Shown: positions 13,264 to 53,002 of the stretch, piece after piece
Position numbering within the stretch: the stretch's first letter is position 1
Layout: each line of letters opens with the position of its first letter
DNA from: Lachnospiraceae bacterium
Lineage (GTDB): Bacteria; Bacillota; Clostridia; Lachnospirales; Lachnospiraceae
Direction of reading: 5' to 3'
Length of the DNA stretch: 58,735 nt
Assembly (NCBI GenBank): GCA_017621815.1
Contig: JAGASK010000042.1
Coordinates: 1 to 58,735 of the forward strand
Notes under the pieces: generated by a model
Seen by the model: only the letters and a program-made list of their open reading frames with translations
Databases searched by the model: none
What the model was told of the DNA's origin: nothing
Program-made: the position numbers and the translations under genes

Positions 13264-13272
13264 TTTTCAATT

Positions 13273-15783: not shown

Positions 15784-15789
15784 TTATCC

Positions 15790-17151: not shown

Positions 17152-17190
17152 TGTTATATCCTTTCCCCGTATTTTCAATATAAATCTCAT

Positions 17191-18150: not shown

Positions 18151-18161
18151 GACTGCACCTC

Positions 18162-19892: not shown

Positions 19893-19895
19893 AGA

Positions 19896-19945
19896 AACCT
19901 CATAGAAAAGGTATTATTATAATTTATTACCTAATCTATGAGGTT
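19896..19945 (-). promoter_or_regulatory. Inverted repeat covering the PBP ribosome site
   Basis: AACCTCATAG (19896-19905) is the exact reverse complement of CTATGAGGTT (19936-19945), with a 30-base A/U-rich loop. On the minus-strand mRNA the second arm contains the ATGAGG Shine-Dalgarno three bases before the ATG of the SpoVD-like gene, so the hairpin could limit its translation. Confidence 0.55.
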
Positions 19946-19975
19946 ATTCCTTTCAAATGCTTCTCCTTGGTATTC

Positions 19976-22204: not shown

Positions 22205-22215
22205 GGAACACCTGC

Positions 22216-22710
22216 TTAGTCAGGGATTTCTCCCGTTTGTCTTACATAGTCGTTGTCGTCACCGTTAAAAGTGATAATCTGACCTTCCTGAGCATACTGC
22301 ATGCCAAGCTCCTGAATGGCAGTCCGTCTTACTTCCTCCAGATTGATATCGCTGGTAAGACGGCTGTATCTTTCATCATTATCCAGTTTCATTGTATTCA
22401 AATCGCTCTCAAGCTGTGCAATATGCTTAATGCTGTTGGTAATGTCCGACTGGAGCTTCAGGTATCCGGTTAAAACAAAACCTGCCAATACCATCGCAGT
22501 TACCAAAAACATTACATAACCCACATTCATGTGTAAAGCCCGTTCTCTGTTCTTGCGGGCTGCATGAGTATTCTTTTTAACAGGTCTTCTTTCATATTCT
22601 GAAGGAACCACCTGAAGCTTTCTTGCTGTATTTCCCTGAATATATACCTGATTCCTTTGTCTGTAAGCATTGCCTGTATATGCACTTTTTCTGCTATTTG
22701 TTGCTGCCAT
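22216..22710 (-). CDS. FtsL-like septum protein
   Basis: A 164 aa bitopic protein in the ftsL position. From the ATG at 22710 (GGAG six bases upstream) there is a long basic cytoplasmic region (about 1-60, with many Arg/Lys/Asn), one membrane span (about 64-84, MFLVTAMVLAGFVLTGYLKL), then a coiled-coil region DITNSIKHIAQLESDLNTMK (about 86-130), the usual FtsL/DivIC plan. FtsL partners DivIC/FtsB and DivIB at the septum. Sequence conservation in FtsL is weak, so the assignment rests on architecture and on its place between rsmH and the septal PBP. Confidence 0.85.
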   Translation of the reverse strand: MAATNSRKSAYTGNAYRQRNQVYIQGNTARKLQVVPSEYERRPVKKNTHAARKNRERALHMNVGYVMFLVTAMVLAGFVLTGYLKLQSDITNSIKHIAQLESDLNTMKLDNDERYSRLTSDINLEEVRRTAIQELGMQYAQEGQIITFNGDDNDYVRQTGEIPD

Positions 22711-22755
22711 ACTAATCTCCATTCCTGCAACCCCGCCGATTTCGGGTGATTATTC

Positions 22756-23691
22756 TTAAGATTTTTCAAAAATACGAAGCTTTGCACTTTTAGAGCGGGG
22801 ATTTTCATCCATCTCTTCCGCACCTGGAAGAATGGGTTTTCCGGTAATTACCTTTCCCCTGCTTGTCCTTCCGCATACACAGACGGGAAAAGAAGGCGGG
22901 CAGGTACACGGATTTTCCGCTTTTTTAAAGGCTGTCTTTACAATTCTGTCTTCCAGTGAATGAAAAGTAATAATACAAAGCCTTCCGCCGGGATTTAACA
23001 AATCGATTAACTCCTCCAGGGACTCACGAAGAACCTCTAATTCCCTGTTGCATTCAATTCTGATGGCCTGAAAGGTTCTCTTGGAAGGATGTCCCCCTTC
23101 CGCTCTCATTTTTGCCGGTATAGCCGCCTTTATTATTTCATTCAGTTCACCGGTTGTTTCTATGGGCTTTTCCTGTCTCGCCCTGACAATATGCTTCGCA
23201 ATGTTCTTTGCAAATTTATCTTCTCCGTAATCTCTGATGATATGAAATAATTCCATTTCTCCATAACCGTTTACAATATCCTTTGCGGTTAATGACTGGC
23301 GTAAATCCATTCTCATATCAAGAGCTGTATCATATCTGTAAGAAAATCCTCTCTCCTCGTTATCCAGCTGATAGGAAGAAACCCCTAAATCCAGCATCAT
23401 GCCGTCTATTTTCTGAATACCCATGGAAGAAAGCACGCTTTTTGTATTTCTGTAATTACTTCTTACAATTATTACCTTATCTTCGAATTTCTTAAGCCTT
23501 TCGCCGGCTGCCGTTATGGCTGCTTCATCCTGGTCAATGCCAATCAGCCTGCCTTTTTCCGAAAGCCTTCCTGCAATTTCAAAGGAATGTCCGCCGCCGC
23601 CGAGAGTACCGTCAACATAAATGCCGTCCGGTTTTATATTAAGTCCTTCGATTGTTTCATAAAGCAAAACAGATGTATGTTTAAAATTCAT
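22756..23691 (-). CDS. rsmH: 16S rRNA (cytosine1402-N4)-methyltransferase
   Basis: SAM-dependent methyltransferase acting on C1402 of 16S rRNA, also called MraW. The 311 aa protein opens [13 protein letters not shown], then the SAM motif GTLGGGGHS near 29-37, [11 protein letters not shown] near 100-110, and the helical insert containing [12 protein letters not shown] cysteine-rich stretch [15 protein letters not shown] near 275-290 is typical of Firmicute RsmH. It follows mraZ by ten bases in the classic dcw order. Confidence 0.97.
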
Positions 23692-38917: not shown

Positions 38918-40396
38918 TCAGCTCCTGTCTTTTCTTTCCCTCAGTATATCCGCGATCAAATCTCTTTCATCCATAGGGTACTTCACCCCTTTGATTTCCT
39001 GATAATCCTCATGTCCTTTGCCTGCCAGAACAATAATATCCCCCGGCTGTCCGTTATCGATTGCATAGGCAATGGCTTCCTTCCTGTCACAGATTTCCAG
39101 AAATTTTCCGTCAGTCTTTGCCATGCCTGTTTCTATATCATGAATAATGTCAAGCGGCTCTTCAAATCTGGGATTGTCAGATGTAATGATGGTCAGGTCA
39201 GCCAGTCTGCCGCTGACTTCTCCCATTTCGTAACGACGCAGTTTTGAGCGGTTTCCGCCGCAGCCAAACAGACATACCAGCCTGCCCGGATTGTATTCCC
39301 TCAAGGTAGATAAAAGGCTCTCAAGGCTCATGGCATTATGGGCATAATCAATCAGCAATGTAAACTTATCCGATACGGGAACCATCTCTATCCTTCCCTT
39401 TACATGGGCTTTTAAAAGCGCCTTCTGTATTTTTGCTTCCTCTACCTGAAAATGCCTGCATACGGCAATGGCGGTAAGAGCATTATATACGCTGAATCTT
39501 CCGGGGGTTGGAACCTCTACCCTGAAATCCATTCTGCCCTTTACATGAAAATCAATGCCAAGCTCGCCGGGCTTATTCACCAGTTTCAAATCCTCTGCAT
39601 ACAAATCGGCCTCAGGATTAAAGCCATAAGTTTCTATATCACAGGTGTGTCCCTGAATCACCGCTTCCATATGGGCATCATCCATGTTTACAATCCCATG
39701 GCGGCACTGCCTGAATAAAAGCCCCTTACATGCCTGATATTCCTCAAAATCCTCATGTTCATTGGGTCCGATATGATCTGGGGACAAATTGGTAAAAATG
39801 CCGATTTCGAAGGTAAAGCCCTGGGTTCTGTGAAGCTTAAGCCCCTGGGATGCCACCTCCATAACAACAATTTCACAGCCTGCATCCGCCATCCGCCTGA
39901 AATACTGCTGCAGCAAAAAAGATTCCGGTGTTGTGTTATTTGCCGGAATATGCTCATCTCCGATAATTTCTTCAATCGTTCCTATTAATCCCACCTTATG
40001 GCCTGCTGCTTCCAAAATGGATTTAATCAGGTAAGTAGTTGTGGTTTTTCCCTTAGTGCCGGTAATGCCGATAATTTTCATTTCATCTGCGGGGTGTCCG
40101 AAATAAGCCGCTGCGATAAATGCCATGGCATATCTGGTATCTTCTACCTTAATCACGGTAATATCATATTCCTCAGGAATCTCCACTTCCTTTTGAACCA
40201 CTAAAGCAGCTGCCCCTTTCCGGGCTGCCTCTAAAGCAAAGCTGTGTCCATCCACATTATAGCCGCAGATGCAGATAAACAGGCAGTCCCTGCTTATTTT
40301 TCTGGAATCGTATACTACTTCATTTACTCTTTTGTTAAGGCTGCCTCTTACACACCGGTAGGACAGTCCTTCTAACAGTTCTGCACATTGAAACAT
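38918..40396 (-). CDS. murE: UDP-MurNAc-tripeptide synthetase, meso-DAP type
   Basis: Adds the third amino acid to UDP-MurNAc-L-Ala-D-Glu. The 492 aa protein has the ATP loop GTKGKTTT (113-120), the TTPES substrate motif near 155-159, and DNPR at 407-410. DNPR is the signature of enzymes that use meso-diaminopimelate rather than lysine, so the wall is predicted to be of the DAP type. It is outside the dcw cluster here, leading an operon with priA, def and fmt, and has a candidate promoter close upstream. Confidence 0.96.
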   Translation of the reverse strand: MFQCAELLEGLSYRCVRGSLNKRVNEVVYDSRKISRDCLFICICGYNVDGHSFALEAARKGAAALVVQKEVEIPEEYDITVIKVEDTRYAMAFIAAAYFGHPADEMKIIGITGTKGKTTTTYLIKSILEAAGHKVGLIGTIEEIIGDEHIPANNTTPESFLLQQYFRRMADAGCEIVVMEVASQGLKLHRTQGFTFEIGIFTNLSPDHIGPNEHEDFEEYQACKGLLFRQCRHGIVNMDDAHMEAVIQGHTCDIETYGFNPEADLYAEDLKLVNKPGELGIDFHVKGRMDFRVEVPTPGRFSVYNALTAIAVCRHFQVEEAKIQKALLKAHVKGRIEMVPVSDKFTLLIDYAHNAMSLESLLSTLREYNPGRLVCLFGCGGNRSKLRRYEMGEVSGRLADLTIITSDNPRFEEPLDIIHDIETGMAKTDGKFLEICDRKEAIAYAIDNGQPGDIIVLAGKGHEDYQEIKGVKYPMDERDLIADILRERKDRS

Positions 40397-40421
40397 AAGC
40401 TATCCCTCTTTTCCTTATAAT

Positions 40422-40450
40422 AAAATAGCATGAAAACCTGTTTTTTTCAA
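40422..40450 (-). promoter_or_regulatory. Candidate murE promoter
   Basis: Minus strand TTGAAA (40445-40450), 17 bases, TATTTT (40422-40427) with a TGC before it as an extended -10. Transcription would start near 40415, only about 20 bases before murE. The rest of the 315-base gap holds a palindrome and the recJ terminator. Confidence 0.45.
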
Positions 40451-40611
40451 CTTATAATGGCGGCCGACGGACTTTTGCAGCCATACGGCAGTTTTTAATG
40501 TATATGTTAGCACATTTTTTCGATATGCTTAATTTTTTGTTTAGATGATTTTAGATTTTTATAATGAAGTGGACACATTTTGTACACATTTTCCATTTAT
40601 TATAAATATCA

Positions 40612-40635
40612 AGATAGTTGAACAACTCACTATCT
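40612..40635. repeat. Nested palindrome upstream of murE
   Basis: AGATAGT (40612-40618) pairs with ACTATCT (40629-40635), while AGTTG (40616-40620) can instead pair with CAACT (40623-40627), giving two competing hairpins. Function not evident. Confidence 0.5.
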
Positions 40636-40650
40636 CCCCCCTCATAAGAA

Positions 40651-40687
40651 AGCAAAGCCTCCGGCATCCCCCGGAGGCTTTTGCTTT
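40651..40687 (-). terminator. Terminator after recJ
   Basis: GCCTCCGG (40657-40664) pairs with CCGGAGGC (40671-40678), extended by AAA/TTT and GC/GC around a one-base bulge. The minus-strand 3' side reads TTTGCTTTCTT. It lies about 25 bases past the recJ stop. Confidence 0.7.
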
Positions 40688-40711
40688 GCGTGCTGTTGTT
40701 TAGTAGTGTTA

Positions 40712-42493
40712 TCAGCAGTAATGCTGCATTACAATCTGAATGTTTTCCCTTCCCGCAAAATAATTAAGGTCAGGATAATACGCCATGCTGATAGGCGCTT
40801 CTTCTTTTTCCAGATGGCTGTCATACAGCCGCTGTCTTGTGCTTTCGCCGAATTTTTCCGCAAGAAATTCATCAAAGCTTTCCAAATCCCCGAAATATAT
40901 CATATCAAAGGAATGTCCTTCTTCATCCGCTATCAGATACTTTCCCACATTTTTATTCTTACCGAGAATTCTGCCCCTTAAAAGACTTATGTTTTTCTGG
41001 GCAAACAGGGGCTTTTGATTTCCCACCCCAAAGGGCTCTAAATAAGACAGTTCTTTAATGAAGGCTTTACTTACATAAGACAGGGGCATGGGCACATCGA
41101 TATGCACCACCTCTTCAAAATCTTCCTCCGTCAAAGTACAGTTCTGATTCAACGCCTGTCTGAAACGTTCAACATCCTCTTCCCCTGCAAGAGAAAGCCC
41201 TGCCGCCATTTTATGTCCGCCGAATTTTGTAAATAATTCCTTACATTTTGTCATTTCCTCATACATGGAATAGCTTTCAATGGAGCGTCCGCTGCCTTTT
41301 ATTCCCTCTTCTCCCCTGGTCAGCACAAAAGCAGGCTTTCCGAACTTTTCCCTGACCTTGCCCGCTATAATTCCCGCCAGGCTTTCATGGCAGTCCGGAA
41401 GATAGACAACAAGTACTCTGTCATCCTTAAGACAGCTCTTTTCCACCTGCTCCACGGCCTCTTTTACGCCGTCTTCGGTCATTTTTTTACGGCTGTCATT
41501 TAAGCTTTTTAAATCCGTGGCAATAATGACTGCATCTTTCCATTCCCGCTCTTCAAACAAACGAAGAGCCCTGTCTGCCGTATCCAGCCGCCCCGTGGCA
41601 TTTAAGCAGGGACCGATAATAAAGCCTGCATGATAAGGAGTGATTTCCTTCTCCTCAATACCGTTGACTAAAAGAAGAGCCTTCAGTCCGAAATTCCCGG
41701 TTTCTTTCATGGCTTTCAGCCCGTATTTTACAATGATACGGTTTTCATCCCGCAGCTCCATGACATCACAGACCGTGGCAAGAGCCGCAAAAGGAAGAAG
41801 CTCATCCAAAACAGCCTTCTTTCTGCCCTCCGGCTCTCCTTTTCTTATAAACAGCGCCTCAATCAGCTTGTAAGCCACTACAGCGCCGCAAATCTGCTTA
41901 AAAGGATAATGACAGTCCTGCTGCTTGGGGTCAATAACCGCATCAGCCCCGGGAATAAGATATTCTTTCTTTCCGTTTTCTTCCTCGAAAGGCACCTCAT
42001 GATGATCCGTTACCACCACTGTCATTCCCATTTCTTTCGCCTGAGCAATCTGAGGGGCTGCGGCAATGCCGTTGTCGCAGGTAATAATAGTATCTATACC
42101 ATCACGCCCGGCATCTTCAATTAATCCCTCATTCAATCCGTATCCGTCTTTTATCCGGTGGGGAATTACTCTGTCCGCCTTACCTGAAAGCTCTCCGATT
42201 CCCCGGAGCAATATATAGGTGGAACAAATGCCGTCCACATCATAATCCCCTATTATCCGCACGGGAACCCCTGCTTCTATTTTAGCAAGAATAATTTCCA
42301 CAGCTTTTTCCATATCCTTCATTAAAAAAGGGCTGTGCAAATCCGTAAGATTCCCCGTCAGGAATTTACGGATGTCCTCATCCTCTGTTACCTCCCTGTT
42401 TCTCATAATCCTGGCGAGCACCGGCGTAATATTGTACTTTTCCGCTATTTTATTGAAATCTGCCTTCTTGGCAGCTACCATCCATTTTGCCAT
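40712..42493 (-). CDS. recJ: Single-stranded-DNA exonuclease RecJ
   Basis: 5'-3' single-strand DNA exonuclease of the DHH family for recombination and repair. The 593 aa protein has DYDVDGICS near 82-90, DNGIAA near 139, the DHH motif in VVTDHHEVP near 155-163 and a DHHA1 region with GGHKMAAGLSL near 413-423. An OB-type domain forms the C-terminal part. It follows the AstE-like gene by three bases, so the peptide-modification operon may read into it; functionally it looks independent. Confidence 0.95.
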   Translation of the reverse strand: MAKWMVAAKKADFNKIAEKYNITPVLARIMRNREVTEDEDIRKFLTGNLTDLHSPFLMKDMEKAVEIILAKIEAGVPVRIIGDYDVDGICSTYILLRGIGELSGKADRVIPHRIKDGYGLNEGLIEDAGRDGIDTIITCDNGIAAAPQIAQAKEMGMTVVVTDHHEVPFEEENGKKEYLIPGADAVIDPKQQDCHYPFKQICGAVVAYKLIEALFIRKGEPEGRKKAVLDELLPFAALATVCDVMELRDENRIIVKYGLKAMKETGNFGLKALLLVNGIEEKEITPYHAGFIIGPCLNATGRLDTADRALRLFEEREWKDAVIIATDLKSLNDSRKKMTEDGVKEAVEQVEKSCLKDDRVLVVYLPDCHESLAGIIAGKVREKFGKPAFVLTRGEEGIKGSGRSIESYSMYEEMTKCKELFTKFGGHKMAAGLSLAGEEDVERFRQALNQNCTLTEEDFEEVVHIDVPMPLSYVSKAFIKELSYLEPFGVGNQKPLFAQKNISLLRGRILGKNKNVGKYLIADEEGHSFDMIYFGDLESFDEFLAEKFGESTRQRLYDSHLEKEEAPISMAYYPDLNYFAGRENIQIVMQHYC

Positions 42494-42496
42494 AGC

Positions 42497-43435
42497 TTAT
42501 CTGTTCTCCCTTAAGGAAATCAGTTTAATTACCGCCGTATCCTCATAAGTCATGGGCTCGTCATGCATAAACAGAACTATACCGTCCCAGGGAGCATAAA
42601 GACAGTCCTTTACTTCACCTTCATAAGCATCAATAATCCGGGCAAGAAGCTGCCCCTTGTGCACTTCCTCATTAACCTTTACACAGCATTCAAAAAATCC
42701 CGCTTCCTTTGTTCTCACACTGATTAAATCCTTATCATCCACCACCTGGGAAATATAACCGTCATGCCCCGCATAGGTAAGCACGCCCTCTTTATCCAGG
42801 AAATTAAGAATGCCCTTTACTGCAAGCTTAGCGCTGTCCTCATCCACCTTTTCCGTATTGGATGTATAAATGCTGAAGGCATGAGTCTCCCAAATCTGCC
42901 AGTTATAATTCAGGGTTGTGGTATCATAAGGTCTGGGATTTCGCAGCACAATATATGGAAAGCCGAATTCTTTCGCCATTTCCACATCTTCAAAGCCTGT
43001 TTTCATCATCCTTACATGGGGAATAAAAGCCCCCGGCATATAAAAGGAAGCAAATTGTATGCCGTATACATACTCCTTAATAATATCAAATGCCTTGGCT
43101 GCAATTCTCTGAGTGGTTTCTCCCAGATGATACCCCGGAAACATACGGTTGATATCCGTGTTGTCCGTAGGGAAAAATCTCTTTTTAATATTCATGGAAC
43201 TGGGATTTAAGGAGGGGATTACCAGTATTTCTTTTCCCTCTTTTAATTTTCCTGCCTTTTCCAGTTCCTTAAGCCGCCTGATAACCTGAGAGCAGGTATA
43301 AAGCTGCTGCACCTCATTTCCTCTGATGCTGCCTACAATGCAGACTGCTTTTTCGCCTTTTCCGAACCGGTACCCTGTAACCCGGAAGGTGTCCCGGTAC
43401 AATGACTGTATTTCAAATAAAGTTTCTTTTACCAT
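42497..43435 (-). CDS. AstE/AspA family protein, predicted non-catalytic paralog
   Basis: A 312 aa protein of the succinylglutamate desuccinylase/aspartoacylase (M14-like) fold. It aligns along its length with the next gene upstream, sharing the NRMFPG motif at 96-101, but the zinc ligand His42 of that protein is Arg38 here, His129 is Phe128, and the catalytic Glu191 position is Tyr190; only Glu41 remains. It is therefore probably not a metallopeptidase and may be a binding or regulatory partner. It overlaps its paralog by seven bases, so equimolar synthesis is likely. The C-terminal domain keeps the family beta-rich region. Confidence 0.9.
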   Translation of the reverse strand: MVKETLFEIQSLYRDTFRVTGYRFGKGEKAVCIVGSIRGNEVQQLYTCSQVIRRLKELEKAGKLKEGKEILVIPSLNPSSMNIKKRFFPTDNTDINRMFPGYHLGETTQRIAAKAFDIIKEYVYGIQFASFYMPGAFIPHVRMMKTGFEDVEMAKEFGFPYIVLRNPRPYDTTTLNYNWQIWETHAFSIYTSNTEKVDEDSAKLAVKGILNFLDKEGVLTYAGHDGYISQVVDDKDLISVRTKEAGFFECCVKVNEEVHKGQLLARIIDAYEGEVKDCLYAPWDGIVLFMHDEPMTYEDTAVIKLISLRENR

Positions 43436-44361
43436 TTCAATATTCTTCCAATCAATGAGCCTTCATCCACAATGGGATATTCCCTGATGGTGAACAGAAT
43501 GCCGTCCACCGGAGATTCTATTCTGTCAAGCACCTTGCCTGTCAGGGGATGAATGATATCACCGATATGTTCTCCTTTATGTATTTTTTCCCAGTGTTTT
43601 GCTTCCTTTATGAAAACACCCGAAACGGAAGCATTTAAAAAGCATACATCATCATTATTGTCCGATATGACTGGCTGTCTGGGAGTGATGGTTTCTCCCT
43701 GCCAGATACCCATGACCTGCATGAGGTGAAAAATACCGTCCACAAGCTGATAACAGTATTCTTTCGTAATCCGCATTCCCACGCCCATTTCCACTACTAA
43801 AGTGGGAGTTCCCCTGCTGTTTAAGGAGTGGGCAAGAGTGGCTTCCAAAACGGTATTGGCACCATGCACCCAGATAAAATCCACATTCAGTTCTTTCGCA
43901 TAAGGTACCAGAATATCCTTATGAAGCTCATTAATCCTCACCTGGGGCACCTCTGTTAAATAAATATTGCTGGCATGAATATCAATGCACATATCGCTGC
44001 CGCATAAATCCTTAACAATTTCCGCCGCAAGAAACTCTGTCATGGAGCCTTCCGTATTTCCCGGAAACAGCCTGTTCATATCCAGGTCAAAGGCCGGAAT
44101 TCCCCTTGTAATGGAATCGATTCCCAAAGGGTTCATTGCAGGATAAATATCCACTGTTCCCGTCAGGAAGTGCTTTTGTTCTTCTATCCTCCTGATGAGT
44201 TCAAAGCAGACATACTGCCCCTCCAGCTCATCCCCGTGAATTCCTGTCACTATGCTGATTCTTTTACCGGAATCTTTTCCCTCTTCCGGCATAATCCGAT
44301 TTTTTTGAATCTTAAGGCTTTCATCCAGCGGCATTTCCACGCTGGCAACTGTTGTTATCAT
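43429..44361 (-). CDS. AstE/AspA family metallohydrolase
   Basis: A 310 aa zinc hydrolase of the succinylglutamate desuccinylase/aspartoacylase family, which cleaves acyl groups from amino acids. Ligands are visible: GIHGDE with His42 and Glu45, DIHAS with His129, NRLFPG (96-101) for substrate carboxylate binding, and Glu191 in VVEMG as the catalytic base. Neither succinylglutamate nor aspartate catabolism genes are nearby; the context is ATP-grasp and transglutaminase genes, so the substrate is more likely the product of that operon (inference). GAGGT precedes the ATG. A palindromic repeat lies just upstream. Confidence 0.93.
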   Translation of the reverse strand: MITTVASVEMPLDESLKIQKNRIMPEEGKDSGKRISIVTGIHGDELEGQYVCFELIRRIEEQKHFLTGTVDIYPAMNPLGIDSITRGIPAFDLDMNRLFPGNTEGSMTEFLAAEIVKDLCGSDMCIDIHASNIYLTEVPQVRINELHKDILVPYAKELNVDFIWVHGANTVLEATLAHSLNSRGTPTLVVEMGVGMRITKEYCYQLVDGIFHLMQVMGIWQGETITPRQPVISDNNDDVCFLNASVSGVFIKEAKHWEKIHKGEHIGDIIHPLTGKVLDRIESPVDGILFTIREYPIVDEGSLIGRILKW

Positions 44362-44390
44362 TTTTTGTTACCTCATTCCCTTATTTAATT

Positions 44391-44429
44391 CATGACAATA
44401 GAAAGTTCGCAAAGCGTGCTTTCTATTGT
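44391..44429. repeat. Dispersed palindromic repeat, best copy
   Basis: ACAATAGAAAG (44395-44405) pairs perfectly with CTTTCTATTGT (44419-44429) around TTCGCAAAGCGTG. The loop itself contains CGCAAAGCG. Related sequences occur at 3121-3157, 7789-7823 and 11086-11118. It lies inside the ATP-grasp operon, in the 98-base gap before the AstE genes, where it could stabilise or attenuate the mRNA. Confidence 0.8.
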
Positions 44430-44459
44430 TTTAAGAAGCGGCAGCTTTCGCCACAGCTC

Positions 44460-45248
44460 CTACTGCTTATCACAGACAACTACCCTGATATCCTGCTTCT
44501 GCTTTGCCATTCCGGTAAACACGCCTTTATTGACAACACAGTCATCATAATCTCTTCCGTGGGATATTTTAATGTAATTGTCATCCACCAGCACATTATT
44601 GGTGGCATCCAGCCCGTACCATTTCCCGTCTGCCTCCATTTCCACCCATGCGTGGGAAAAGCCTTCCCCAATCATCATTCCCACTACATATCTTGCGGGA
44701 ATTTTCAGCATCCGAAGAAGGGCAATCAAAATGTGGGCGTAATCCTGACAGACACCCCTTCCAAGCTCCATAGCTTCTTCCGCAGTGGTCAGGTAAGTAG
44801 TTACCCCCTTTTCATAAATAAAATCCTCATAAATTTTATGCATGAGAAAAACTCCCTTATCATAAGCAGACCAGTTTTTTGCAAATGACAAAGAAGCCAT
44901 ATACTCCTTTAAGTATCTGCCGGGCTTTGTGTATCCTGACGGATATTTAAAAATTCCAAGCTGATGAGAGGGCAATGCCTTTTCACAACTGTCAAGTCCG
45001 GTGAGAGCCGTTCCCTCCACCTTTACATGAAACATACTGTGTGATTCCTCCACCATCCCGTATATTTCCCTGTTTCCAAAGGAATCCCTGCTTTCACTGT
45101 ATTTAGGAACCGGCTCAATCCTTAAGTCCACGCCCTCGATGAACTGGCATTCATTACTTTCCGGTATACACTTTAACGTAAAGCGGTGATTCCTTACAGG
45201 CTCTGAAAATTCAAACAGCATTTCATAAGTAAAATGCAGGTTTTTCAC
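44460..45248 (-). CDS. Transglutaminase-like protein
   Basis: A 262 aa protein with a bacterial transglutaminase N-terminal beta domain (about 1-110) and a transglutaminase/protease-like catalytic domain. The triad is Cys167 in GVCQDYAH, His199 in FSHAWVE and Asp214 in GLDATN. No signal peptide, so cytoplasmic. Start is GTG with GGAGGTG upstream, three bases after the alpha-E gene. Proteins of this type are repeatedly found with alpha-E and permuted ATP-grasp proteins and are proposed to act as peptidases or amide-bond transferases on the ATP-grasp product; no substrate is established. Confidence 0.93.
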   Translation of the reverse strand: MKNLHFTYEMLFEFSEPVRNHRFTLKCIPESNECQFIEGVDLRIEPVPKYSESRDSFGNREIYGMVEESHSMFHVKVEGTALTGLDSCEKALPSHQLGIFKYPSGYTKPGRYLKEYMASLSFAKNWSAYDKGVFLMHKIYEDFIYEKGVTTYLTTAEEAMELGRGVCQDYAHILIALLRMLKIPARYVVGMMIGEGFSHAWVEMEADGKWYGLDATNNVLVDDNYIKISHGRDYDDCVVNKGVFTGMAKQKQDIRVVVCDKQ

Positions 45249-45251
45249 TGC

Positions 45252-45920
45252 TTACACCTCCAGAAGATGTTCGATTTCATACACTACCTTATAATAATCG
45301 ATTTCCTCCGCTTCCACAAGATTTTTTAAACAGTTTAACCCGTCTTTGTCATATTTGATACCGCTTCGCTCCACACGGGGAATCAGCCTGTGAACTTCTC
45401 TTGTAAGACCTGAAGCTGCCATATGAAGCCTTCCGAATAAATCCACCCTCTCCACTCTTTTGCCGGTTTTTATAATGTTTCTGATCTGTTCGCTGTCAAT
45501 AATATCATCCGCAATTCCCCAAAATGCCAAAAGGTTGTCAATCACGCTCTGCATTTCTATTAAAGGGGCACGGCTTATTTTCGCTTTATGCATATCGTAA
45601 ATGGCAAGCTGGATATACGAAAGTGTTTCGCTGCCTATTTCCTCACGGAGCACTATGGCATTGTCATAAGCTCTGATTAAATTGCTGATAATGGAATTAG
45701 TGTCCTCCTCATCAAAAGGATATTTTTCCTTAAAGCTTTCCCTTGAACCGTAAACATCCGGTATGTCAAGGCGTCTGCAGAATTCCTGATAATCGTAGCT
45801 GTCAATATCTATGAGCCGGTCAAAGCTGTCGGAATAAAGCCTCAGTGTGGTATACACCCTTTCCGAATATCTTCCGAGCCAATATAATCTGTTTGTCTGT
45901 TCTACTGAGATAATACCCAT
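45252..45920 (-). CDS. Alpha-E domain protein
   Basis: A 222 aa all-helical protein of the alpha-E family (PF04168). It begins MGIISVEQTNRLYWLGRYSERVYTT, the family opening with the conserved NRLYWLGRY/ERVY pattern, and is built of amphipathic helices through to HLLEV. No catalytic residues are assigned to the family. It overlaps the ATP-grasp gene by 19 bases and has GGAGGAGG upstream; the tight coupling suggests a physical complex. The family is almost always next to a circularly permuted ATP-grasp gene, as here. Confidence 0.93.
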   Translation of the reverse strand: MGIISVEQTNRLYWLGRYSERVYTTLRLYSDSFDRLIDIDSYDYQEFCRRLDIPDVYGSRESFKEKYPFDEEDTNSIISNLIRAYDNAIVLREEIGSETLSYIQLAIYDMHKAKISRAPLIEMQSVIDNLLAFWGIADDIIDSEQIRNIIKTGKRVERVDLFGRLHMAASGLTREVHRLIPRVERSGIKYDKDGLNCLKNLVEAEEIDYYKVVYEIEHLLEV

Positions 45921-47221
45921 GTGTCTTTAAATCCTCCTCCCTGAGATGAATTTACAATAAATGATTCCGGATTCCGTGAAAATCTGGTCAGCCCGCTTTT
46001 CCATACGAGGGGCTCATCTGCCATAAGCACAAATGCACGCAAATCGGCTTTTCTCGGAACGGCTTCTCCTTTTTCCCAAATATCAATGTCCAGAAAATCT
46101 ATAACCTCCTGGGCAATAAAACGTCTGGGCTGTGCTTTCAAAAGCTCAATGAAATCCTCTTTCTGATATTTTGTCATGCTGCTGCCGAAAACCACTCCGT
46201 AACCGCCTGCCTCTGCCACATCCTTAAGCACCAGATTGTCAAAATGTTCCAGCACATATTTCATATCTTCTTCATAAAAAGGAAGATAGGTAGGCGCATT
46301 ATGTAAAATGGGTTCTTCTCCCAGATAATACTTTATCATTTTCGGCACGAAGTAATAGATGCCCTTATCATCGGCAATTCCGTTGCCCGGCGCATTTAAA
46401 AGCGCCACATTTCCTTTTTTATAGACATCGAAAATATGAGGAATGCCGATTACAGATTCTTCCTTAAAATTCATGGGGTCCAAATATTCATCCGAAATTC
46501 TCCGGTAAACAGCTCCTACTCTTTCTTTATTTCCCTTATAATCCAAGAAATAAAGCTTATCATCCTCCACCAGAAGCTCACTGCCGTTTACAAGGTGGGC
46601 GCCTGTTTTTTCAGCCAGATAAGAATGCTCAAAATAAGCTGCATTATATCTTCCCGGAGTAAGAATAACCGTATGTCCGCCCACATTAACATTATCCATG
46701 GTTCTTCTCAGCAGCTGCGCATAATTCCGGTTATCGCACAATTTTGCATTCTGAAAAGTCACAGGGTCGCTTCTCCTGCACAAATCCCTGGCAATCATAG
46801 GATAAGAAGCTCCGGAAGGAACACGGAGATTGTCTTCAAGCACGTACCAGGTTTTATCCTTCGCCTGAACCAAATCAATACCTGATATGTGGGAATAAAC
46901 GTCCTTTACCGGACTGATTCCTTCGCACTGGGCAAGATAACCGCTGCTTGCAAAAATGAAATCTTCCGGTATCACATTGTCCTTTACAATTTTCTTCTCA
47001 CTGTAAATGTCCTTCAGGAAAAGATTTAAGGCTGATACTCTCTGCTTAAGCCCCTTTTCAAGATACTCAAATTCCCCTTTGTCAATCACTCTCGGAATCG
47101 CATCGAAAGGAAACAGTTGCTCCTTAAATACATTGTTTTTGTAGATACCGAATTTTACCCCATATCTGGCGAGTAATTTGTTAATGGTATCCGCATGGTC
47201 CAACAAATCTGTTTCGTACAT
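45902..47221 (-). CDS. Circularly permuted ATP-grasp type 2 protein
   Basis: A 439 aa ATP-dependent ligase-fold protein (CP_ATPgrasp_2). The start at 47221 has GAGGG upstream. Diagnostic segments are LVLKDVAEAGGYGVVFG near 348-364 with the ATP-binding Lys and glycine loop, DLRAFVL near 397 and the C-terminal GLTRFS with NSSQGGGFKDTWVLS, including the Arg/Asn/Lys metal and ATP ligands. ATP-grasp enzymes join a carboxylate to an amine; this branch is predicted to make a peptide or modify one, but no product is known. It leads the operon, 60 bases after the secDF terminator. Confidence 0.94.
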   Translation of the reverse strand: MYETDLLDHADTINKLLARYGVKFGIYKNNVFKEQLFPFDAIPRVIDKGEFEYLEKGLKQRVSALNLFLKDIYSEKKIVKDNVIPEDFIFASSGYLAQCEGISPVKDVYSHISGIDLVQAKDKTWYVLEDNLRVPSGASYPMIARDLCRRSDPVTFQNAKLCDNRNYAQLLRRTMDNVNVGGHTVILTPGRYNAAYFEHSYLAEKTGAHLVNGSELLVEDDKLYFLDYKGNKERVGAVYRRISDEYLDPMNFKEESVIGIPHIFDVYKKGNVALLNAPGNGIADDKGIYYFVPKMIKYYLGEEPILHNAPTYLPFYEEDMKYVLEHFDNLVLKDVAEAGGYGVVFGSSMTKYQKEDFIELLKAQPRRFIAQEVIDFLDIDIWEKGEAVPRKADLRAFVLMADEPLVWKSGLTRFSRNPESFIVNSSQGGGFKDTWVLSQ

Positions 47222-47284
47222 ATAATCCCTCTTTCTGTTTTTGAACGCCAGTGCCGGCACGCTTTATGAGGTGCCGCACCGGAT

Positions 47285-47319
47285 AAAAAAAGCGTCCTGC
47301 ATTTTTGCAGAACGCTTTT
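47285..47319 (-). terminator. Intrinsic terminator of secDF
   Basis: Fourteen-base stem with one mismatch (47288-47301 with 47306-47319) and a four-base loop, followed on the minus strand by a run of U. It separates secDF from the ATP-grasp operon. Confidence 0.9.
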
Positions 47320-47451
47320 GTTCATTTTACTTTCTACTGTATATCATACACAGCAGCAATATTGTATTTCTTGTATACAATAATACAATCCTCGTATTCA
47401 TTTGTCAATCATTTATTTTCATTAATACAAATTACTGTCCGGACTGTAATC

Positions 47452-49701
47452 TTACTGTTCCTTTGCATGAAACATTTTACGAAGTACCAACCACAAAGAA
47501 CCTGCAATACATACGGAGGAATAGGTACCGCAAAGAATACCGGCCATCAGGGGCAGTGCAAATTCTTTTACGGAAGATACACCAAAGATATAAAGTGCAG
47601 CTACCATAATAAAGGTTGTCAGTGAAGTAAAGATACTTCTTGACAAGGTCTGGGTAATACTGGTGTTCACAACATCCTCCAGCGCATCTTTTCTGCTCAT
47701 GGATGCCATATTCTCACGCACACGGTCAAAGATAACGATGGTCGCATTAATGGAGTAACCTACGATTGTCAGCATACATGCAATAAAGGTGGTTCCCACG
47801 GATACTTTTACAATCGCATAAAAAGCAAGCACTATCAATACGTCATGAAGCAGGCAGAGAACCGAGCTGGCGCCGAAACGGATGTCCTTAAACCGGAACC
47901 ATACATAAATCAGCATAAATACCGTTGCCACAAGCACTGCAATAATGGATTCCTGCTTCATTTCACTGCTTATGGTGGAGCTGATGGTTTCAGCCGTTAT
48001 CTTTTCTGCATCCACGGAGAAATTTTCCACCATGGCATTTTTAAATTCTTCTCTTTCTTCTACCGATAAGGAACGTGTCTTGAAAATCACTTCATTGGTT
48101 CCGTCAATTTTCTGTGTCTGTACATTTCCGTCTCCGGTAATTTCTTCAATTAACGGAACTACCCTTGCATCAATATCCGCAAGGCTCATATCCTCATTAA
48201 AAGTAACATCAGTGGAGGTACCACCGATAAACTCAAGGCTGTAATTCAGCACATTGCCCGTCTGAGCCTTATTAACTCCCATAAATACAAAGCCAAGTAA
48301 AACTGCTGCAATGGAAATGCCGAAAAATACCGTCTTTCTGGATGTGAAGTTGACAGCCTTTCTTTCCCTTGCCGTACCATACAGTTTTGCATTCTGCAAT
48401 CCCAGCGCATAAAGCGCCTTCATAATAATTCTTGTTACCACCATGGCTGTAAACATGGATAAAACAATACCAAGGGCCAATGTTGCAGCAAATCCCTTTA
48501 TGGTTCCTGAACCCATTACCCCAAGCACTGCCGCTGCAATCAAGGTGGTAATATTGCCGTCGAAAATGGCTGACTGCGCTTTTTTATATCCGGTGTCAAT
48601 CGCTGATTTTACCGTTTTGCCCTTTGCGATTTCTTCACGGATTCTTGCGAAAATAATAACATTTGCATCCACCGCCATACCGATTGACAGAATAATACCG
48701 GCAATGCCGGGCAAGGTCAGCGTTATGTCAAAACCGTTCAGCAATATAATAATCAATTCCACATACAAACCAAGTGCCAGGCTGGCTGCCAGACCGGATA
48801 TATAATATACCGCTATCATGAAAACAACAATAATCACAAATCCTACTGCTGCGGCTTTAATACTGGTGGAAATTGCTTCCTCACCCAGCTGGGCGCCTAC
48901 CACTTTGGAATGAAGCTCTTCAAGCTCCAGCTTAAGTCCGCCGATTCTGATGGTGGAAGCCAGCTGCTCAGCGGATTCATAAGTAAAGTTACCTGTAATC
49001 TGAGCCTTGCCATCTGTTAAAGCTGCCTGTACTGTGGGTGCGCTGATAATGTTTCCGTCATAATAAATACCAAGGCTTTCACCCTTCTGATATGCCTTTG
49101 TGGTGGCATCGGCAAATTTCTTCGTGCCCTCTTCCGTCATGGTCAGGTCAACCCCAACCTCTGTATTCTGCATACTGTTGGTAAAGGAACCGGCCTGAGC
49201 ATCCTTTACATCCGTACCGGACAGAACCGCACTGCCGTCTGCAATAATCTCATCAATGCTCTTTAACATCACATAAATAATATTGCCGTTGGCATCCAGC
49301 GTTGCCTGATAATTATAATTTCCTTCTGAATCTGTTTCGGAAATAAAATACAGGGAACCCGGCTTTCCAAGTTCTTCCAAAATGGCGTTGGCATCGGAAA
49401 CGCCCGGGATTTCAATGTTAATTCTGTCATCCCCTTCTTTATATACAACAGATTCCGTACTATAGGTTTCCACTCTTTTCTGCAGCTTATAAATGGTATC
49501 TGCCATATCTTCACTGCTTGGCTTTTCGTCTCCCACCACCTTATAGGTAATGCTGACGCCGCCTGCCAAATCAAGTCCCAGCTTAATGTCGGAAGCGGAA
49601 CCGGAATTACTGCTTCCAATTCCCACTGCTGCTGTATAACCGAAACCGCCAAGCAGCAGTACCAGCACCAGCAGAATCACAATTGCTCTACTTTTTTTCA
49701 T
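47452..49701 (-). CDS. secDF: Protein translocase SecDF (fused)
   Basis: A single-chain SecD-SecF of 749 aa that uses the proton gradient to assist Sec secretion. The start at 49701 has GGAGG eight bases upstream. The SecD half opens with a membrane span (about 5-25), LGLDLAGGVSITY near 40-52 and a large external domain (to about 255), then five spans with MAVDANVIIFARIREE near 344-359. The SecF half has its first span near 460-480, SLEFIGGTSTDV near 500 and YSINATIVIFDRVREN near 650. Joined SecDF is common in Firmicutes. Located downstream of the SCIFF genes. Confidence 0.96.
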   Translation of the reverse strand: MKKSRAIVILLVLVLLLGGFGYTAAVGIGSSNSGSASDIKLGLDLAGGVSITYKVVGDEKPSSEDMADTIYKLQKRVETYSTESVVYKEGDDRINIEIPGVSDANAILEELGKPGSLYFISETDSEGNYNYQATLDANGNIIYVMLKSIDEIIADGSAVLSGTDVKDAQAGSFTNSMQNTEVGVDLTMTEEGTKKFADATTKAYQKGESLGIYYDGNIISAPTVQAALTDGKAQITGNFTYESAEQLASTIRIGGLKLELEELHSKVVGAQLGEEAISTSIKAAAVGFVIIVVFMIAVYYISGLAASLALGLYVELIIILLNGFDITLTLPGIAGIILSIGMAVDANVIIFARIREEIAKGKTVKSAIDTGYKKAQSAIFDGNITTLIAAAVLGVMGSGTIKGFAATLALGIVLSMFTAMVVTRIIMKALYALGLQNAKLYGTARERKAVNFTSRKTVFFGISIAAVLLGFVFMGVNKAQTGNVLNYSLEFIGGTSTDVTFNEDMSLADIDARVVPLIEEITGDGNVQTQKIDGTNEVIFKTRSLSVEEREEFKNAMVENFSVDAEKITAETISSTISSEMKQESIIAVLVATVFMLIYVWFRFKDIRFGASSVLCLLHDVLIVLAFYAIVKVSVGTTFIACMLTIVGYSINATIVIFDRVRENMASMSRKDALEDVVNTSITQTLSRSIFTSLTTFIMVAALYIFGVSSVKEFALPLMAGILCGTYSSVCIAGSLWLVLRKMFHAKEQ

Positions 49702-49782
49702 TACATAATCCTCCATTCTTATCAAAACCTGCGAATTTGGGCGTAAGCGCAAATTTGCTGTGGAAAAATCTTTGGTTTTCCA

Positions 49783-51174
49783 CTATTCTCCTTCTTGTTC
49801 GGCCAATGCCGCTTTTATCATAATCGCACATTCAATGCGCTTTCTCTGCAATTCACAGCCAAGGTCATAAGCATCATTAATATTCCCGTGAAAATTATAG
49901 GAGTTGGCTGCACATCCGCCGCTGCAGTAGAATTTTGCAAAACACTTTCTGCATTTTTCTTTTGCGTAAACATTGCAGGTTTTGAATTCATCTCTGATAT
50001 CGCATCTTGTGATTCCTTCATCCACATTTCCCATCAGGAATTCTTCCTGCCCCACAAACTGATGGCAGGGATAAAAATCTCCCCATGGAGTCACCGCAAG
50101 ATACTCCGTCCCCGAACCGCAGCCCGAAAGTCTCTTTGCCACGCAGGGACCACCCTTTAAATCTATCATAAAATGAAAGAAATTAACACCTTTTCCTTCT
50201 TTTTGCCTTTTTAAAAGCTCTGCTGCCAGACGGTCATATTCTTTAAGGAGCACCGGAATATCCTCTTCCTTAAGCGCATAGCTTTCTTCCGGAGACGCTA
50301 CTACCGGCTCCACGGAAATCTGCTTAAAGCCCAAATCCGCCAGATGCTTCACATCCTCTGCAAAATCAAGATTATTATGGGTGAAAGTCCCCCTTACATA
50401 ATAATTCATCTGATTTCTGCTTTCAGCCACCTTTTGAAACCTGGGAACAATAGTATCATAGCTTCCCTGACCGCCCCTGTAAGGACGCATTCTGTCATTG
50501 ACCTCTTTACGTCCGTCAATGCTGAGAACCACATTAGCCATTTCCTTATTGAGAAATTCCATAATTTCATCATTCAGAAGAATTCCATTAGTGGTTAGTG
50601 TAAAACGGAATTTTTTATTATGGGCTTTTTCCAGGCTTCTTCCGTAAACCACAAGGTCTTTTACAACCTGCCAGTTCATAAGCGGTTCCCCGCCGAAGAA
50701 ATCCACTTCCAGATTCACCCTGTTTCCTGAATTGGCTACCAGAAAATCAAGAGCCTTCTTTCCAACCTCAAAGCTCATCAGCGCACGTCTGCCATGATAT
50801 TCACCTTCTTCCGCAAAGCAGTATTTACATGCCAGGTTGCAGTCATGGGCAATGTGAAGGCAAAGAGCCTTAACCACAGTTTCTCTCTTTTTGAAATCTA
50901 TAATATAGTTTTCATAAATATCTTCCGTATAAAGCAATCCGGCTTCTTTAAGCTCAAGTACTTCTTCAAGAGCCTCCGTAAGGTCAGCTTCTTCATAACG
51001 ATTCTTAAGCCGGCAGATAACGGCTTCTTTTATGGCTTCCTTTTCCATCCCGCAATTTAAAGCTTCTTCCACTGCCGGTATCACATCATATACTACATCA
51101 TCCACCACATGCACGGAACCGCTGTTCACGTCAAGCACGATGTTGTAGCCATTATTTTTATATTGATGTACCAC
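49783..51174 (-). CDS. scfB: SCIFF radical SAM maturase
   Basis: Radical SAM enzyme of 463 aa that installs thioether cross-links in the SCIFF peptide. The SAM cluster is C112-NLA-C116-KY-C119, with FFGGEPLMN near 158 and TLTTNGILL near 190. The C-terminal SPASM/Twitch-type region carries many Cys for auxiliary clusters: CNVYAKEKCRKC and FYCSGGC, then a final Cys in DLGC. The first ~90 residues form the peptide-recognition domain. The precursor gene lies 170 bases upstream with a hairpin between, and secDF follows. Confidence 0.96.
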   Translation of the reverse strand: MVHQYKNNGYNIVLDVNSGSVHVVDDVVYDVIPAVEEALNCGMEKEAIKEAVICRLKNRYEEADLTEALEEVLELKEAGLLYTEDIYENYIIDFKKRETVVKALCLHIAHDCNLACKYCFAEEGEYHGRRALMSFEVGKKALDFLVANSGNRVNLEVDFFGGEPLMNWQVVKDLVVYGRSLEKAHNKKFRFTLTTNGILLNDEIMEFLNKEMANVVLSIDGRKEVNDRMRPYRGGQGSYDTIVPRFQKVAESRNQMNYYVRGTFTHNNLDFAEDVKHLADLGFKQISVEPVVASPEESYALKEEDIPVLLKEYDRLAAELLKRQKEGKGVNFFHFMIDLKGGPCVAKRLSGCGSGTEYLAVTPWGDFYPCHQFVGQEEFLMGNVDEGITRCDIRDEFKTCNVYAKEKCRKCFAKFYCSGGCAANSYNFHGNINDAYDLGCELQRKRIECAIMIKAALAEQEGE

Positions 51175-51263
51175 GATTAAACTTGTCCTTCCTGATTCGT
51201 TTTACAAATATGCGTTTAAACATTCGCTTAAGGCTTCGCCATCCGCTCACTGTTAACGCAGAA

Positions 51264-51290
51264 TAAGCAGCGACTGTACATCGCTGCTTA
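51264..51290. repeat. Perfect hairpin between scfA and scfB
   Basis: TAAGCAGCGA (51264-51273) pairs with TCGCTGCTTA (51281-51290), loop CTGTACA. No U run follows on the minus strand, so it is more likely an mRNA stabilising or processing site that sets peptide and enzyme ratios than a terminator. Confidence 0.75.
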
Positions 51291-51341
51291 CAATCACTAT
51301 CTACTTTTGTGATAATTGCTGTAGTTCATCTTTTCAAAAGA

Positions 51342-51485
51342 TTATTTAACGTTCTCACAGCTCTGGTTTCCTACTGTGCAGGATGTTTTACATGCTGACT
51401 GACATGATGTCTGGCATTCACCGCATCCGCCTTTCTTCATGGATTCCTTTAAGTCTCTTGTTGTTAATGTTTTAATACGCTTCAT
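51342..51485 (-). CDS. scfA: SCIFF ranthipeptide precursor
   Basis: A 47 aa peptide (six Cys in forty-five) that is the substrate of ScfB. It begins MKRIKTLTTRDLKESMKKGG, the conserved leader, followed by a core with Cys at 21, 24, 28, 32, 36 and 43 and Thr/Ser/Gln/Asn residues between them that receive thioether links. AAGGAG precedes the ATG by eight bases. The finished product is implicated in quorum-type signalling in Clostridia. Too short for routine gene calls. Confidence 0.96.
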   Translation of the reverse strand: MKRIKTLTTRDLKESMKKGGCGECQTSCQSACKTSCTVGNQSCENVK

Positions 51486-51527
51486 AATAATATCTCCTTT
51501 AACAGGTTGTTTCTCTGATTTTCATAT

Positions 51528-51536
51528 AGTATATCA
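51528..51536 (-). promoter_or_regulatory. Extended -10 promoter of scfA
   Basis: Minus strand TGA followed by TATACT (TGN-TATACT). No good -35 hexamer is visible 17 bases upstream, which is usual for extended -10 promoters. It lies in the 78-base gap after the CorC-like gene. Confidence 0.5.
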
Positions 51537-51563
51537 TACATCTTCCGTTTGGGAAAGTTTTTT

Positions 51564-52961
51564 TTACTTTTCGGAATTTTCCTCTGAAAATTTCTCAGAA
51601 GAAACCTCTTTTTCACCGGATAATTCCGTTATTTCTTCATCTTCGTCTGCTTCTTTTCCGGCAGTTTCTCCATTCTTATGCTTATCTTCAGAAGCATCCT
51701 CTTCTTTTTCTTTCTCCGGAAGGGTCATCAGCACTTTTACAATCCGGTTTTGATTGATGCCCTTTACCTGCAGGGTAATACCCTGGGAAATGGTAATAGT
51801 CTCTTCATCCTCAGGAAGTCTGTCAAGATTTTCTATCATCAGACCTCCGATGGAATCATAATCCTCAGACGCAAGAGTAGTTCCAAGCTCATCATTAATA
51901 TCTGCCAGTTTCATGCTGCCTTCCACCAGATAACTTCTTTCCCCTACTTCCTGAATCAGTTCTTCCTCGTCCTCATCATACTCATCCCTGATTTCCCCGA
52001 CGATTTCCTCAAGAAGATCCTCCAGTGTAATCATGCCCACAGTGGCTCCGTACTCATTAAGCACAAAGGAGACATTAACTCTCTTTTCCCTCATTTCCAT
52101 GAGCAGGTCAGCCGTCTTCTTATACTCATAGGTATAATAAGCTTCTCTCATAATATCATGAATGCAAAAGCTTTCTCTGTCTGTGACAAGTATAAAATCC
52201 TTGATATTAATTAAACCGATTATATTGTCCTTATCCTCCTGATAAACAGGAATTCTGGTATACATGCATTCCTTAAACAGCTCCAGGACTTCATCATAGC
52301 CTGCATCCACACTGATTGTAGCCATATCGATTCGGGGAATCATAATATCTTTCGCAACGGCGTCTGAAAAATCAAACACGTTGTATATTATTTCCCTTTC
52401 TTCCGATTCAATAACGCCGTCCTCATGACTGACTTCCACATAAGTACGAAGTTCCGTCTCCGTCATGGCCGTACGCTTATTGGAATCAATATGTAACACT
52501 TTCATAATGCCGCCTGCCAGTTTATCCACCACAAAGATAACAGGAGTCATTATTTTCATTAACCCCGCAATAATAGATGCATAAAAGAGAGCCAGTTTTT
52601 CGGAATATATCATAGCCATATTTTTGGGTATGATTTCTCCGAACAGTAAAATTGCCACTGTCAGTATTCCGGTTGCAATTCCCACTGCCAGATTAATTCT
52701 GAGCGCCAGCGTTGTAGCCAGAGAAGAAGCATACAGGTTTACAATGTTATTGCCTATTAAGATAGCGCTGAGCATCTTTCCGTACTTATCAAGTACATCC
52801 AGCGCTATTTGCGCCCTTTTGCTTCCCTCATCCGCCAAAGCCTTCAGCCTCACTCTGTTGACCGTAGTCAGCGCTGTCTCTGCTGAAGAGAAAAAAGCGG
52901 ATAAAAACACCAGAACTAAAATCGCAAACAATTGTATGACACCATCGGTATCCAAAATCAA
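51564..52961 (-). CDS. CNNM/CorC family membrane protein
   Basis: A 465 aa protein of the hemolysin-C/CorC family, linked to Mg/Co transport. The N-terminal CNNM (DUF21) domain has about four spans (7-30, 65-85, 95-120 and 130-150) with FFSSAETALT and GEIIPKN. Two CBS domains follow (about 205-330), then the CorC transporter-associated domain (about 345-425). The tail from about 428 is Glu/Lys/Ser-rich and disordered. Start TTG has AAGGAGTGAT upstream. Its own promoter is visible. Confidence 0.93.
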   Translation of the reverse strand: MILDTDGVIQLFAILVLVFLSAFFSSAETALTTVNRVRLKALADEGSKRAQIALDVLDKYGKMLSAILIGNNIVNLYASSLATTLALRINLAVGIATGILTVAILLFGEIIPKNMAMIYSEKLALFYASIIAGLMKIMTPVIFVVDKLAGGIMKVLHIDSNKRTAMTETELRTYVEVSHEDGVIESEEREIIYNVFDFSDAVAKDIMIPRIDMATISVDAGYDEVLELFKECMYTRIPVYQEDKDNIIGLINIKDFILVTDRESFCIHDIMREAYYTYEYKKTADLLMEMREKRVNVSFVLNEYGATVGMITLEDLLEEIVGEIRDEYDEDEEELIQEVGERSYLVEGSMKLADINDELGTTLASEDYDSIGGLMIENLDRLPEDEETITISQGITLQVKGINQNRIVKVLMTLPEKEKEEDASEDKHKNGETAGKEADEDEEITELSGEKEVSSEKFSEENSEK

Positions 52962-53002
52962 ATCACTCCTTATTTCATATAATTTTAAAATTTAATAAGC
53001 AA

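Follow-up and report, generated by a model that had tools for sequence, protein, structure and literature searches.

What a conserved trio of genes for an ATP-grasp protein, an alpha-E protein and a transglutaminase-fold protein (TG) makes has been an open question ever since the trio was described. In passages of PMC5666114 and PMC6376114 the trio belongs to the Anbu operon (ATP-grasp, alpha-E, transglutaminase and the proteasome homologue Anbu, in conserved order), to which no product is assigned and for which peptide synthesis or tagging is proposed; a sequence-only reading of the present locus had likewise described the trio as a widely co-occurring set with no assigned product. Here we ask the same question of a five-gene unit in the window, a 58,735-nucleotide (nt) stretch of DNA that forms contig C33 (JAGASK010000042.1) of a Lachnospiraceae bacterium genome (GCA_017621815.1; 3.50 Mb, 52 contigs, 91.55% complete), in which the trio is followed by two AstE-family genes, AstE1 and AstE2. 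We find that AstE1 has an intact active-site pattern and that AstE2 is apparently a conserved pseudoenzyme, and we give a probability of roughly 40% to a cycle, driven by ATP, that would form and hydrolyse an amide of an acidic amino acid, with AstE1 as the cutting and AstE2 as the binding member.

An apparent enzyme and an apparent pseudoenzyme beside the trio

The five open reading frames (ORFs) occupy 47221-42497 on the minus strand, and their Pfam families, all above gathering cut-offs, agree with the genes that the sequence-only reading placed there. The amide ligase candidate, a CP ATP-grasp protein of type 2 (439 residues; 45902..47221, with a GTG at 47260 as alternative start), is encoded by a gene that overlaps by 19 nt that for a short-form alpha-E protein (222 residues; 45252..45920), from which a 3-nt gap leads to TG, a Bact_transglu_N plus transglutaminase-fold cysteine protein (262 residues; 44460..45248); these three genes are adjacent in the order of the Anbu-type operon. 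After 98 nt comes AstE1, a candidate AstE/AspA-family Zn amidohydrolase (310 residues; 43429..44361), whose gene overlaps by 7 nt that of its putative pseudoenzyme partner AstE2 (312 residues; 42497..43435), and the next downstream gene begins 3 nt past AstE2.

Both AstE proteins match AstE_AspA_cat (PF24827; E = 6.4e-24 for AstE1 and 9.1e-13 for AstE2). AstE1 carries the full Zn-site set H42, E45, H129 and E191, which we take, from the AspA/AstE family, to be the Zn ligands (H, E, H) and the catalytic Glu; all four are kept in 88/88 trio-linked sequences, this and the other residue counts excluding sequences with stops or with less than 80% coverage. The pattern is common to the nearest solved structures 2qj8, 3cdx and 3na6 and, over the aligned part, to DoeB (6twm). 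An hhalign comparison of AstE1 with 35 AstE2 sequences (probability 99.4) sets R38, E41, Q127 and Y190 opposite these four residues, with Q127 aligned directly past a two-residue gap, and among trio-linked AstE2 sequences R38 and E41 are kept in 85/85 and Q127 in 84/85, the remaining one having H. Three of the four catalytic positions are replaced, E41 alone being retained, and AstE2 is without both Zn histidines and the catalytic glutamate, which does not support the earlier reading of the pair as two hydrolases. Conserved across both paralogues, with at most one exception each, are N96, R97, R86 and R142, presumably substrate-binding residues by analogy with the family. An AlphaFold2 model of AstE2 (predicted local distance difference test, pLDDT, 91.2) has the AstE fold, its best PDB matches being 3na6, 3cdx and 6twm (template-modelling (TM) scores 0.74-0.81), with CphZ from rank 17 (TM 0.69-0.78). 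Since its catalytic residues are replaced and its fold is kept, we file AstE2 as a pseudoenzyme of the family, apparently a conserved one that retains the presumed substrate residues and has lost the metal site. Judged by these residues, the pair consists of an apparent enzyme and a conserved pseudoenzyme rather than of two hydrolases, and is a clear example of how a catalytic AstE protein and a pseudoenzyme can be conserved together.

The ATP-grasp protein matches CP_ATPgrasp_2 (PF14403, E = 1.8e-133) over its full length, residues 43-414 against profile positions 1-373 of 374, as well as CP_ATPgrasp_1 (PF04174, E = 1.7e-124), and has the stretches LEDNLR, K-x-GGYG and VNSSQGGG-KDTW in common with PDB entry 3n6x (1.1e-107). 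TG matches Transglut_core (PF01841, E = 1.1e-15), Bact_transglu_N (PF08379, E = 5e-11) and PDB entry 3isr (5.9e-15), and its C167, H199 and D214, which we assign from family knowledge as the Cys-His-Asp triad, are kept in at least 97% of 87 sequences. At the level of sequence, the trio thus shows conserved ATP-grasp and Cys-His-Asp motifs. The alpha-E protein matches PF04168 (E = 1.4e-18; profile positions 7-168 of 294) and, at 222 residues, compares with about 300-345 residues in the distant relatives examined; E20 and R21 are invariant in 38 sequences. Its AlphaFold2 model is all helical (pLDDT 92.3), and because this confident model has no PDB match with E <= 0.001, we draw no function from the fold, which possibly is one without a solved relative.

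The five genes stay together as their surroundings change

We built a 10-sequence ATP-grasp alignment, which also served as the query for a scan of named genomes, and took the best 80 of its 555 confirmed candidates, close relatives at 79-95% identity; locus contents were read by tblastn of the window proteins, followed by a count of gene order and strand. All five genes lie in the same order on one strand in 74/80 loci, or 74/75 of those with room, as five of the other six stop too early at a contig end and L147 is the true exception. The 80 loci overlap the other sample (L117 lies inside the L035 sequence, and L104 is L082 reversed), the near-identical L105 and L111 are treated as a single case, alpha-E or TG appears in two tblastn pieces in L089, L095, L096, L102 and L141, and AstE2 itself is truncated by a contig end in L092 and L150. 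Genes that flank the unit in the window recur (>50% identity) in at most 4/80 loci: the SCIFF maturase, SecDF and a hemolysin-type gene in four each, and recJ, murE and priA in three each. Because the flank genes change while the five stay together, the AstE genes are not the random neighbours that the sequence-only reading had allowed for, and its question whether the pair travels with the trio is answered in the affirmative both here and in the class sample described below. It is nearly certain that the five genes form one functional unit. The two nearest named relatives of the window (ATP-grasp 95% identity) are metagenome-assembled genomes labelled Clostridium sp. and Lachnospiraceae, and the set is found in gut and rumen bacteria.

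Three further samples were drawn by taxonomy (class, family and phylum), with totals that include the window's own genome and Fisher values that used one genome more. In the class sample (about 340 other genomes), seven genomes have a full-length ATP-grasp of this type at 67-83% identity, and AstE2 (E <= 1e-30) is present in 7/7 of these vs 3 of about 333 others (Fisher about 1e-12, kinship ignored). The sample was scored on the two end genes, except in G393; AstE2 lies about 2.5 kb from the ATP-grasp gene on the same contig in six of the seven and on another contig in G642, and internal stops occur in the G642 ATP-grasp and the G716 AstE2. AstE2 without an ATP-grasp match is found in G557, G631 and G653, and G693 has an ATP-grasp fragment. 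All 10 of the 99 other family genomes with a full-length ATP-grasp have a close AstE1 (E < 1e-80), and 12 more have a close AstE1 and no full-length ATP-grasp, including G037 (split) and G094 (fragment). An ATP-grasp match is present in five of the 298 other phylum genomes: two of this type, G347 and G393, carry the full set, and in three distant loci (ATP-grasp 41-43%) the ATP-grasp and TG genes are accompanied by an alpha-E match, the latter by Pfam in L075, by Pfam and fused to TG in L077, and by tblastn in L076.

Fragments of the operon persist in G025 and G094, and also in G083, where they lie at the end of a contig. Two remnants, an ATP-grasp piece beside an AstE2 piece (L080, 9612-10021) and a lone ATP-grasp piece (L079, 9727-9960), point to loss of the whole unit. 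Pairwise distances of the five genes correlate at 0.70-0.90 across 76 loci; species relatedness is uncontrolled in these values, and we therefore do not use co-divergence as evidence.

An importer and a FUSC-HAD gene near some units

In part of the relatives the unit adjoins a gene string encoding a GlnQ-like ATPase, an SBP_bac_3 binding protein, two permeases, a Cytidylate_kin2-type protein and a FUSC/ArAE_1 plus HAD protein (FUSC-HAD). The string lies 5' of the unit in L105 and L111, where FUSC-HAD overlaps the ATP-grasp gene, and 3' of AstE2 in L100, with about 120 nt between by homology; in L140, FUSC-HAD alone follows 5 to 15 nt past AstE2. FUSC-HAD is present in 16/80 trio loci vs 0/30 controls (Fisher 0.004) and the binding protein in 10/80 vs 0/30 (Fisher 0.035), kinship being ignored in both values; the Cytidylate_kin2-type gene occurs in 10/80 trio loci vs one control (L046). 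The 30 controls come from elsewhere in the family, have longer flanks on average and are not lineage-matched; one of them, L058, is a short contig that carries the trio with its ATP-grasp gene split, and without it the control figure for FUSC-HAD and for the binding protein is 0/29. On a 90-locus ATP-grasp tree the presence of FUSC-HAD (17 loci) changes 12 times vs 15.8 in shuffles, as would be expected if it had been gained or lost more than once.

The window's own genome has the importer, the Cytidylate_kin2-type gene and FUSC-HAD in a row (L170, 10341-15675, on contig C37). Of the 99 other family genomes, three (G023, G031 and G060), all among the 10 with a full-length ATP-grasp, have a close orthologue (at least 75%) of its binding protein, in a search that scored at most 22 candidates per genome and could have missed orthologues. 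The best NCBIfam model for the L033 binding protein is the Asp/Glu-binding PRK11917 (4e-52, below cut-off). A broader glutamate theme was considered and set aside, as NadE (6), Icd (6), citrate synthase (4), RelA/SpoT-like (8) and Peptidase_C26 (4) genes are too few among the 80 loci, with 0, 0, 1, 0 and 0, respectively, among the 30 controls.

A candidate make-and-hydrolyse cycle

A common trio with two unrelated hydrolase types in one slot suggests that the slot cuts an amide made by the trio, and an amidohydrolase family with a dead twin in Anbu's place, partly with an importer, points to a small amide over proteasome-like proteolysis. By analogy with the chemistry of the AstE family, the amide would contain an acidic or similar amino acid, in agreement with the importer. 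In the cycle that we favor, the ATP-grasp protein would activate a carboxylate and join it to an amine, yielding an amide that involves Asp, Glu or a similar acidic amino acid, with alpha-E as a non-catalytic partner; TG would transfer or trim this amide and AstE1 would hydrolyse it back, while AstE2 might serve as a binding or regulatory subunit of AstE1, perhaps in a heterodimer. Such a cycle could store, exchange or salvage amino-acid nitrogen, and the GlnQ/SBP_bac_3 ATP-binding cassette transporter and FUSC-HAD, where present, would carry either the amino acid or the product through the membrane, in a direction that we infer. Passages of PMC6376114 report that a homologous Yersinia ATP-grasp releases phosphate from ATP, and nitrogen supply enters through passages of PMC5491218, in which trio-type genes are lowered in a Burkholderia cenocepacia ntrC mutant, and of PMC8050072, in which PP_2685 (Anbu) and PP_2688 (ATP-grasp) of Pseudomonas putida are higher on nitrate than on ammonium.

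A more ambitious version, which we consider doubtful as a whole, would make the unit part of an unrecognised clostridial nitrogen store or exchange cycle, in which the product of the trio would be an acidic amino acid in isopeptide or amide linkage, a two-subunit complex of catalytic AstE1 and sensing or gating AstE2 would degrade it, the Asp/Glu-type importer and FUSC-HAD would link it to the outside, and Anbu operons of other phyla would run the same chemistry with another hydrolase. This lineage offers testable enzymes from named isolates, e.g., Butyrivibrio.

Evidence against the cycle and competing explanations

Several observations weigh against the make-and-hydrolyse cycle. The pair occurs without the trio in 16/40 AstE loci fetched from the family sample, and 11 of these 16 solo-pair loci (L043, L045-L051 and L054-L056) have a purL-type gene, identified by Pfam in one representative; such solo pairs, many of them close to purL, mean that the pair may act on something other than what the trio makes and that its role does not in every case depend on the trio. 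AstE1 has lost H42 in three solo loci (L048, L054 and L056; Q once, Y twice), such that AstE1, too, may be inactive at these loci. In L147 the 8.5 kb that follow the trio, where the genes are reversed, contain no AstE match, and a genome-wide search with AstE2 alone finds no close AstE2 elsewhere (best E 1.8e-7, 28%). These solo pairs and L147 weaken the proposal of the sequence-only reading that the pair only trims the trio's product, even as its linkage of the pair to the trio stands.

As for the transport component, the importer is linked in 10/80 and FUSC-HAD in 16/80 loci only, and in the window's own genome, as also in G031, the gene string lies on a contig other than the operon's. Full-length FUSC-HAD is present in 10/89 family genomes without a full-length ATP-grasp vs 3/10 with one, and in all seven fetched of those 10 genomes it stands without the importer. 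According to passages of PMC6376114, phosphate release by the Yersinia ATP-grasp is not stimulated by Glu, Gln or Anbu, and a Yersinia pull-down with Anbu as bait gave no operon partner. The nitrogen data come from proteobacteria only, so that nitrogen regulation of the clostridial unit would be an extrapolation from them. CphZ, in passages of PMC12661447 the isoaspartyl dipeptidase of cyanophycin breakdown, matches the AstE1 profile over the C-terminal domain only, and more weakly than DoeB does.

The solo pairs and L147 fit an explanation that we would hold only tentatively, in which two modules coexist: the trio would make its product alone, and the AstE pair would be a general salvage amidohydrolase kept in the operon for co-expression. 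It is consistent, too, with three distant Bacillota loci and six plasmid CP ATP-grasp loci, in which no AstE1 or AstE2 tblastn match (E up to 1e-3) is found within the fetched stretch. Two modules would not predict the ordered five genes in 74/75 loci with room amid changing surroundings, and the AstE2 tree argues in the same direction, as 15 solo AstE2 proteins fall into one clade (support 0.999) with only two trio-linked members, L039 and L042. The AstE trees label L141 as solo in error, owing to a stop in its ATP-grasp; the trio is present there, and the residue counts class it correctly. One locus, L062, has an orphan AstE2.

The pull-down result bears equally on protein or peptide tagging, the published Anbu-operon hypothesis (Iyer 2009, as cited in PMC6376114), in which cellular proteins would be given an amino acid or peptide tag by the ATP-grasp protein and TG and be freed of it by AstE1, as suggested for Anbu as a deconjugase. 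Going by the family with which AstE1 aligns, its type of Zn site would be suited to an acidic residue at a terminus; none of the unit's ORFs is recognised as a carrier or tag gene, the Anbu bait captured no operon partner, and the AstE pair persists without the trio. We consider tagging unlikely.

Surroundings of the unit in the window

Upstream of the operon, on the same minus strand, lie a SCIFF-family radical SAM maturase (49783-51174; TIGR03974, 5.5e-243) next to secDF, which stands between it and the unit, and a Cys-rich ORF (51342-51485), which we recognise from recall as a SCIFF-like peptide. Their position raises the idea that the unit matures a small peptide in the manner of a ribosomally synthesized and post-translationally modified peptide (RiPP), e.g., the SCIFF-like peptide three genes upstream. 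The maturase adjoins the operon in 4/80 loci, and we disfavor the SCIFF link on this count; a separate flank clustering took ORFs of at least 80 residues. No substrate was found for the new peptide or amide-tagging pathway that the sequence-only reading had suggested, the search for precursor peptides covering the ORF lists, and RiPP-like maturation is very improbable.

A candidate promoter, TTGACA-17-TATTAT, lies 5' of the ATP-grasp gene (47380..47408, minus strand) and is weak despite an 11/12 consensus match, the promoter and terminator scan giving no excess over shuffles (13 promoter sites vs 12.0 expected). No riboswitch or T-box is found 5' of the operon by Rfam (40000-53000, E up to 0.1), and Rfam at gathering thresholds returns only a single tRNA across seven relative loci. 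Elsewhere in the window, 11177-23691 holds an unremarkable cluster of cell division and wall genes (mraW, two penicillin-binding proteins, a murD-like gene, an ftsW-family gene, an EPSP-synthase-family gene and ftsZ).

Comparison with known systems

Among the open-licence PMC papers listed by literature searches, none was recognised as describing the AstE pair combined with the trio, and the unit can be set against three known systems. Like the N-acetyl-diaminobutyrate deacetylase DoeB/EutE and the AstE/AspA proteins (6twm, 2qj8 and 3cdx), AstE1 aligns over the H-x-x-E, D-x-H and Glu motifs, which we take to contribute to the Zn site; it differs in scoring 56 bits against a 403-bit NCBIfam cut-off for DoeB and in being paired with a non-catalytic paralogue. 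The cyanophycin cycle has an ATP-grasp synthesis step. It resembles the proposed cycle in nitrogen storage and in the hydrolysis of an Asp-containing dipeptide by an AstE-fold enzyme, CphZ (8ein, 8eip), which, as far as passages of PMC12661447 go, is a precedent by analogy for such an enzyme in an ATP-grasp nitrogen store. The unit has a CP ATP-grasp rather than CphA, and neither cyanophycin synthetase nor cyanophycinase is among its five proteins, to which that search was confined.

The closest likeness is to the Anbu operon, whose first three genes come in identical order and which also has a hydrolase-fold gene 3' of the transglutaminase gene; in passages of PMC5666114 and PMC6376114, no peptidase activity was found for the Anbu proteins tested. 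On a Klebsiella plasmid, the genes for ATP-grasp, alpha-E, TG and a PF00227 protein are consecutive. Sinorhizobium, Tsukamurella and Deinococcus plasmids carry the trio, and their gene tables, which are incomplete, show no hydrolase gene beside TG; Acidithiobacillus and Caballeronia plasmids have other gene orders. None of the five proteins of the present unit is Anbu, and PF00227 has no match (E <= 0.001) in the 91.55% complete window genome, whereas 10 of 14 control genomes have one. The unit differs from the Anbu operon in having AstE1 and a putative pseudoenzyme AstE2 instead of Anbu, an alpha-E of about 222 residues, and a clostridial host. From gene order and residue patterns, the unit is best explained as the clostridial form of an Anbu-type operon, with an apparently active/inactive AstE pair in Anbu's slot.

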